Source of the DNA: Caulobacter sp. BK020
Lineage (GTDB): Bacteria > Pseudomonadota > Alphaproteobacteria > Caulobacterales > Caulobacteraceae
Direction: 5' to 3'
NCBI RefSeq assembly: GCF_004342605.1
Contig: NZ_SLZL01000014.1
Location: forward strand, 1 to 64,000
DNA length: 64,000 nt
The notes under the pieces were generated by a model that worked only from the letters and a program-made list of their open reading frames with translations, ran no database searches and had not been told where the DNA came from. The translations under genes and the position numbers were made by a program. Positions 36,254-40,991 of the stretch are shown here, piece by piece. Each line of letters starts with the position of its first letter. Position 1 is the stretch's first letter.

Positions 36254-36322
36254 CAGGCGGACTCCGGCAAGCGAGTCGCGACTATAGCGGGCGTCAAACG
36301 CGACGCTTGCACCTTCATAAGG

Positions 36323-38499: not shown

Positions 38500-38601
38500 C
38501 CCCCTCAGTCGCTTCGCGACAGCTCCCCCAGAGGGGGAGCATCTTGCACGATCAGATCCTCCCCCTCTGGGGGAGGTGGCGGCGAAGCCGACGGAGGGGG
38601 T
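38500..38601. repeat. palindromic extragenic repeat, family C
   Basis: Left portion CCCCCTCAGTCGCTTCGCGA then GCTCCCCCAGAGGGGGAGC; right portion CTCCCCCTCTGGGGGAG then GCGAAGCCGACGGAGGGGG. The whole is a nested inverted repeat starting 16 bases after the AhpD-like stop codon. A single copy in the window. Confidence 0.82.
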
Positions 38602-38739: not shown

Positions 38740-40966
38740 ATGTTCACCCTGCGAGACACCGTGTCCTCCCTGGTTCCGGCCCGCGCCGACACCCTGGGCA
38801 AGACGCTGTATGAGCGGTTCCGCGAGGAGCCGGACACCCTGATCGTGCCGGTGCTGGACGGCGACGACCGCCCCATCGGCCTGGTCGAGCGCAACGCCTT
38901 TTTCCTGCGCATGGCCGCCGAGTACGGCCGGGCCCTCTACGCCCTGCGGCCGATCTCGGTGCTGATGGACAATGACCCCCTGGTGGTCGAGGCCGACGTC
39001 GAGCTGGCGGCCTTCACCAGCGACAGCCTGTCGTACCGGGCCAGCGACCTGCTGCGCGGCTTCATCGTCACCGACGGCGGGCGCTATATCGGGGTCGGCA
39101 CGGTGCTGGGCCTGCTGCAGGCCGCCAACGAGACCAACCGCCGCGGCGTCGAGGCCCTGGCCGCGGCCAAGGCCGACGAGGAGCGGGCCCGCACCTTCAT
39201 GACCGCGGTGGTCGAGGCCATCCCGTCGATGGTGTTCGTCAAGCGGGCCGACGACCATGCCTACGTGCTGCTCAATCGCGCCGGCGAGAAGATCCTGGGC
39301 CACGCCCGCGCCGACATGATCGGCCGCACCGACGCCGACTTCTACCCGGCCGACCAGGCGGCGATCTACCGGGAGCGCGACGCCGAGGTGATCTCGTCGG
39401 GCGAGGTGCGGGTGATCGAGGAGGACCACGTGCCGCGCAAGGACGGCTCGGTGGCCCTGCTGCGCACCAAGAAGATCGCCATCCTTGGACCGGACGGCGC
39501 GGCCGAATATCTGCTGGGCGTCTCCGAGGACATCGCCGAGCGCAAGCGGGCCGAGGCCCAGATCGCCCGCCTGGCCCACTATGACCCGCTGACGGACCTT
39601 CCCAACCGCCTGCTGTTCCAGAAGGACCTGGCGGCGGCCCTCAGCCGGGCAGCGCGGCGCGAGGACCTGGTGGCGGTGCATTGCATTGACCTCGACCGCT
39701 TCAAGACCGTCAACGACACCCTGGGCCATCCGGTCGGGGACGCCCTGCTGAAGATCGCCGCCGAACGTCTGCGGACCTGCGTGCGCGAGGGCGACACGGT
39801 CGCGCGACTGGGGGGGCGACGAGTTCGCGGTGGTCCAGTGCGGCCTGACCGACCTTTCCGGCGCCACCCGTCTGGCCGGACGTATCGTCGAGGCCCTGGC
39901 CGAAACCTTCGAGCTGCAGGGCCAGCAGGTGATGATCGGCGGCAGCGTCGGGGTGGCGGTGTCACCCAACGACGGGGCCGACTGCGATGAACTGCTGAAG
40001 AAGGCCGACATGGCCCTCTACCGCGCCAAGGCCGACGGCAAGGGCGCGTTCCACTTCTTCGAGCAGGCCATGGACGAGGCCCTGCAGGCCCGGCGGGCCC
40101 TGGAGCTGGACCTGCGCCTGGCTCTGGCCGAGGGTCAGTTCGAGCTGCACTACCAGCCCCTCTACAGTTTGGGCGCCGACAAGGTGATGGGCTGCGAGGC
40201 CCTGCTGCGCTGGCGCCATCCCGCGCGCGGCATGGTCTCGCCGGCCGACTTCATCCCGCTGGCCGAGGAGATCGGCCTGATCAACGCCCTGGGCGAGTGG
40301 GTGCTGCGCGAGGCCTGCCGCGAGGCGGCCGGCTGGCCTTCGCACGTGCGGCTGGCGGTCAACCTGTCGCCGGCCCAGTTCCGCGACAGGCACCTGGTGA
40401 CCACCGTGGTCTCGGCCCTGGCGGCCTCGAGCCTGGCCGCCCAGCGGCTGGAGCTGGAGATCACCGAGTCGGTGCTGCTGCAGGACACCGCCGGCAACAT
40501 GTCGATCCTGCACGACCTGAAGGCTCTGGGCGTGCGGATCTCGATGGACGACTTCGGCACCGGCTATTCCAGCCTGAGCTATCTGCGCAGCTTCCCGTTC
40601 GACAAGATCAAGATCGACCAGACCTTCGTGCGCGACATCCTCGACGACGCCGACGCCCTGGCGATCATCAAGGCCGTGCTCGACCTGGGCGCCAGCCTGG
40701 GCATCACCACCACCGCCGAGGGCGTGGAGTCGGCCGAACAGCTGGACGAGCTGCGCCGCCAGGGCTGCGGCGAGATCCAGGGCTACTTCATCAGCCGCCC
40801 CAAGCCGGCCGCCGAGATCGCGGCGATGCTGGGGGTCGTCGTCAGGAGCGGCGACAAGGCGCCCGTGTTCACCTTCTCCCATGGGGGGAAGGAGGGGCCC
40901 GCCGCGCAGCGGTGGGAGGATGAGGGGGTTCTGAATCAGCCGGCGAGCCGGCAGGGCGCTCAGTGA
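38740..40966 (+). pseudogene. CBS-PAS-GGDEF-EAL c-di-GMP signalling protein, frameshifted in GGDEF
   Basis: Frame-corrected, this is 741 residues: CBS-like pair (about 1-125), PAS (about 150-270), GGDEF (about 280-430) and EAL (about 450-700). The first frame reads VARLGGRRV and stops at 39990. The second resumes as DEFAVVQCG when one G is removed from the G7 tract 39810-39816, so the break falls inside the GGDEF signature. EAL motifs are intact: CEALLRW, ELEITESVLL and DDFGTGYSSLSYL. The corrected protein would make or break c-di-GMP. If the insertion is real, the first frame yields a truncated protein lacking DEF, and an EAL module could be made only by internal initiation. Sequencing error in the G run is the main alternative. 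Confidence 0.85.
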
Positions 40967-40991
40967 AATCGTCGAGGGCGTAACTCCTCGT

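Follow-up and report, generated by a model that had tools for sequence, protein, structure and literature searches.

The window analysed here covers 64 kb at the start of contig C14 in a Caulobacter genome of 5.13 Mb, which is assembled in 47 contigs and scored 100% complete. On its forward strand there is a gene for a c-di-GMP enzyme that is split over two reading frames. The first frame (38740 to 39990) encodes a weak CBS-like N-terminus, a PAS domain, and the first half of a GGDEF domain, followed by 57 out-of-frame residues. It reads VARLGGRRV at the signature and stops at 39988 to 39990, giving 416 amino acids. The +1 frame carries the DEF of the signature and continues through the EAL domain to the stop (39818 to 40966, forward strand). 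Read from 39812, it begins GGDEFAVVQ and ends at 40966. The frames part at a run of seven Gs (39810 to 39816, forward strand). An earlier note on this DNA had claimed that this G7 tract splits a c-di-GMP enzyme inside its GGDEF signature, had given the same two readings, and had arrived at 741 residues in sum. All of this was confirmed by inspection of the frames, which contribute 359 and 382 residues. Among the named relatives in the GTDB collection, those closest by this protein are Caulobacter sp. Root1455 (96%), UNC279MFTsu5.1 (95%), and UNC358MFTsu5.1 (94%).

G7 tracts are rarer in the window than a dinucleotide shuffle predicts, with 3 observed versus 37.9 expected, and 95 exact ones are present in the 5.13 Mb of the genome. 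Upstream of the gene, at 38517 to 38581, there is an inverted repeat with 28-base arms that are 89% complementary. It resembles an intergenic repeat element, and a similar sequence seems to encode the C-terminal tail of the protein near 40880 to 40940.

The protein had been described in the note as CBS-PAS-GGDEF-EAL. The PAS, GGDEF, and EAL domains hold, as each passes its Pfam cut-off, while the CBS-like stretch (residues 22 to 51, 38803 to 38892) is below threshold with 17.8 bits versus a cut-off of 24. The PAS domain (PAS_4, residues 158 to 270) is encoded at 39211 to 39549. The GGDEF domain is divided between the two frames, with profile positions 1 to 81 at 39574 to 39816 in the first and positions 79 to 159 at 39809 to 40042 in the +1 frame. 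The EAL domain at 40109 to 40801 is complete (profile positions 3 to 236, about 250 bits). All of these features are on the forward strand. The first GGDEF half contains REGD, which we take to be an RxxD-type site. Bifunctional PAS-GGDEF-EAL enzymes (DibA NF045675; PDB 5m3c, 4rnh, DosP) have the same domain order, and the intact relatives possess complete GGDEF and EAL domains as these enzymes do. Here the EAL half is likewise complete (249 bits), whereas the GGDEF domain is frameshift-split and does not have its signature in a single frame. The best NCBIfam score is for DibA NF045675, far under the cut-off, with 130 and 341 bits for the halves against 980; the sum is also under it. No other equivalog cut-off is reached. 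Elsewhere in the genome, 11 GGDEF and 8 EAL matches are present, all in open frames of 263 to 859 amino acids, without stops.

The equivalent place was explored in 75 Caulobacter genomes including this one (74 relatives). With the N-terminal protein as query, 49 of them gave a match at E 1e-60 or better, and all 49 loci, the one under study and 48 orthologous loci, were examined. Between DEF and the conserved block that precedes the signature there are 9 bases in each of the 48 relatives and 10 here. The longest G run in this stretch is two at five loci, three at 41, and four at two; a run of seven occurs in this genome only. The signature is in frame with DEF in all 48 relatives, and the frame is broken here at a place where the relatives are intact, as in a recent pseudogene. 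Two relatives are broken elsewhere, the sister species G010 by a 20-base deletion and G024 by several frame breaks downstream of the signature. G024 was rejected as a third broken copy, as it is a poor draft scored 61% complete. Three matches that resemble the signature but contain an additional C, in G016, G019, and G020, were considered as frameshifted GGDEF signatures and set aside, since they read WAADEF in other genes. Six of the 48 orthologues (L083 to L088) match just query residues 1 to 137, before GGDEF-EAL, and thus seem to be without this PAS domain. A plasmid search yielded partial matches alone, covering 23% of the query at most.

A comparison of tract length with relatives had been proposed in the note, along with the idea that the homopolymer could be a natural slip site. 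The comparison goes against this idea. All 48 relatives are one base shorter at this place, and because none of these loci has a G run longer than four, the tract is not a conserved slip site; among the genomes searched, it occurs in this one alone. It is also just seven long. By hand count, in-frame G6 signatures make up two of the 150 matches listed, of about 161; they belong to other Caulobacter GGDEF genes, whose frames span 821 and 707 amino acids.

The possibility of a sequencing artefact was explored with a coding-frame test, in which codon usage was scored on both sides of 97 G/C tracts of at least 7 (93 of length 7 and four longer). Two tracts near a contig end were dropped, and tracts of at least 8 were sampled in part. 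A first run with 240-base sides over 96 tracts found 26 crossed in one frame, seven frame switches, one strand switch, and 62 unclear cases. On reading, six of the seven frame switches are gene-to-gene junctions and the seventh is this site. In a second run, which used sides of 90 bases, a model trained anew, and less strict score limits, 38 of the 97 tracts were crossed in one frame, one showed a strand change, four showed frame changes, and 54 were uninformative, leaving 43 clear cases. Three of the four same-strand frame switches are ordinary gene-to-gene junctions, and the fourth is again this site. Systematic miscalling of homopolymers was therefore rejected.

Alignment to G010 gives a similar picture. 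In the 33.8 kb of the window that could be aligned, there are 19 indel clusters with a frame-changing net length, six in clearly coding DNA and 13 unclear. Among the six, a frame switch in this genome without one in G010 is seen at the tract site alone. The reverse case, a switch in G010 alone, is represented by its 20-base deletion and two further places. Together with the frame test, this indicates that the assembly does not miscount Gs as a rule. Three silent third-position differences from G010 and most relatives are present at the site (39798, 39807, and within the tract), and they appear as real substitutions would. Thus the artefact suggested in the note seems the less likely reading; a systematic error is unlikely, with 38 of 43 clear tracts in frame and the sole true frameshift here, while a single error is possible.

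Other long G runs were found in the genome. Contig C20 (95929 to 96023) ends in a run of 95 Gs, which is presumably an artefact of two-colour short reads; G-rich read artefacts were thus not all removed from the assembly. A G16 run (G000:C5:158751-158766) is in a seemingly intergenic G/C-rich repeat element. A G10 run (G000:C3:102152-102161) is in frame near a gene start on the other strand, in a gene that we take to be purE-like, and it is a better candidate for a slip site than the G7 tract.

The gene ends close to a junction with the secA region (40958 to 40979), about 1.15 kb downstream of the tract. The distance from secA to the orthologue is about 260 to 270 kb in G010 and G015 and about 10 to 14 kb in G003, and the two are on different contigs in G059 and G019. 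The flanks searched at 75 loci, mostly short ones, contained no secA. The junction is either a rearrangement or a misassembly. Since it was not seen in the relatives compared and is so close, a local misassembly is conceivable.

The closest relative on the gene tree is G010 (locus L013, support 0.994), a two-contig genome in which 12 of the 20 blocks aligned in this region are 91 to 95% identical. It has no G run at the signature and lacks 20 bases situated 150 to 170 bases upstream of the tract, within GGDEF, so that its gene is also out of frame; its EAL domain stays open. The matching bases are present here at 39639 to 39658 on the forward strand. A loss of 20 bases is not a typical base-calling error, and on inspection the lost stretch sits among GGCGG-like repeats, which fits slippage. 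An ancestral lesion common to both was rejected, as the two lesions are at different places and neither genome has the other’s. Two sister species thus bear independent lesions in one domain of this gene. Indels at 2561 to 2563 and 36254 to 36284 of the window seem to be accompanied by a change of coding frame in G010 but not in this genome; these switches may be gene ends or lesions in G010.

Selection on the two halves was explored with our own codon model of 14 taxa, in which omega was varied on either this genome’s branch or the G010 branch. The N part had 331 codons and the C part 340. Likelihood profiles were made with the tree, relative branch lengths, kappa, and background held fixed. 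Background omega was 0.048 for the N part and 0.039 for the C part. On this genome’s own branch, omega peaks near 0.02 (N) and 0.03 (C), the profiles being two units down at roughly 0.05 and 0.09. An omega of 1 lies 37 (N) and 15 (C) units below the null on this branch and, similarly, 25 and 37 units below it on the G010 branch. No excess of amino-acid changes was found on either branch with this model. According to the model, purifying selection held on both halves over nearly all of both branches, and an old pseudogene was rejected on the low branch omega. Both lesions would then be young, or the separate parts would still be used. If nothing constrained the parts once the lesion had occurred, the lesion would be no older than about 5% of the branch.

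A frameshift mutation is the most likely explanation for the locus, with an assembly error next. This conserved Caulobacter PAS-GGDEF-EAL gene has probably undergone a recent loss-of-function frameshift by slippage, which would have inactivated both the cyclase and the full-length protein. Before this, the first of the glycine codons in the signature, GGC in most relatives and GGG here, would have changed silently and so fused two glycine codons into a G run. The two in-frame G6 signatures indicate that the supposed intermediate exists and is tolerated. Replication slippage would then have made the private run one base longer. The ribosome would go out of frame at the signature and stop 57 residues later, leaving a putative product made up of the sensor and half a cyclase, without the active site and without EAL. 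Cyclase activity would be lost, and little or no EAL protein would be made. In the assembly-error explanation, the strain’s enzyme is intact and the extra base is a mistake of the consensus in a G-rich stretch of a draft. This is an unlikely reading that still deserves serious weight. The draft is in 47 contigs, one of which has the 95-G end, relaxed selection is not seen on either half, and the junction not seen in the relatives compared is nearby. However, the 38 coding tracts of at least 7 that are in frame belong to the same assembly, the 33.8 kb aligned to G010 hold no further clear frame switch confined to this genome, and the differences around the site are silent, like real substitutions.

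The remaining explanations give the broken gene a function. The earlier note had suggested that the EAL part could be made from an internal start, and a candidate for this is present at 39998 to 40012 on the forward strand, where a Shine-Dalgarno-like AAGAAGG precedes an ATG at 40010 in the EAL frame. This is the best re-initiation candidate: the ATG is 20 bases past the first-frame stop and has a 6-of-7 Shine-Dalgarno match with a 5-base spacer; the GTG at 39830 has just a 4-of-7 match at a poor distance. Translation that ends at 39990 and restarts at ATG 40010 would retain a working EAL phosphodiesterase, so that c-di-GMP could be broken down by this protein without being synthesized. The EAL domain is complete and its omega is low in both lineages. 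G010 lost the cyclase frame independently with EAL open, and its stop codon begins 67 bases upstream of that ATG. However, the motif and ATG fall within GGDEF coding sequence and are found in G010 too, so they exist for coding reasons and are not evidence of design. Very recent lesions explain the low omega equally well, and chance could well have placed two lesions upstream of EAL. An EAL product from this start is improbable. A broader form of the idea, slightly more doubtful still, is that the cyclase half was knocked out twice, by a one-base insertion here and by the 20-base deletion in G010, with the EAL half left open and conserved, and that common selection for lower c-di-GMP has produced a two-product locus of a sensor fragment and a re-initiated EAL phosphodiesterase. 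A phase-variable contingency locus, where slippage of the G tract turns the full-length enzyme on and off in populations, is very improbable. The homopolymer is exactly at the signature codons, and in other bacteria, tracts that shift the frame of coding genes are known to inactivate them reversibly, according to the abstract of PMC2831843. However, the tract is mid-gene, is just seven long, and is not kept in related species, with none of 48 having a G run longer than four. An evolved slip switch is unsupported beyond the tract itself. Least probable of all is programmed recoding, in which ribosomal frameshifting or transcriptional slippage on G7 would restore the full-length protein. On inspection, the tract forms an in-register G GGG GGG heptamer, but a -1 shift enters the third frame, which stops at 39846 to 39848, and not the downstream EAL frame, and the site is in none of the 48 relatives. 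Polymerase slippage on G7 is still conceivable.

Known systems resemble this locus in part. The inlA gene of Listeria monocytogenes is likewise frameshifted by length change of a coding homopolymer, as the abstract of PMC2831843 describes; its tract is a poly(A) close to the 5′ end whose frequent variation has been measured, whereas here there is a mid-gene poly(G) known from one genome and seen at one length. PdcB of Clostridioides difficile, a phase-variable phosphodiesterase, is also a c-di-GMP enzyme with genetically varying activity. Its abstract (PMC9286219) attributes this to an invertible promoter, shown experimentally, and not to a slip tract. Slip-tract control of a GGDEF enzyme is not evident in the titles and opening lines of abstracts among the papers searched (including PMC8115180 and PMC9286219).

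If the extra base is an assembly error, the locus is a caution against reading switches into single-genome homopolymers. The one point worth a second look is that this domain carries an independent lesion in the sister species. A real frameshift would mean that one cyclase has been knocked out naturally in a genus that serves as a model for c-di-GMP control. A second, independent knockout would then stand in the sister species, and a common change in attachment or motility is conceivable.
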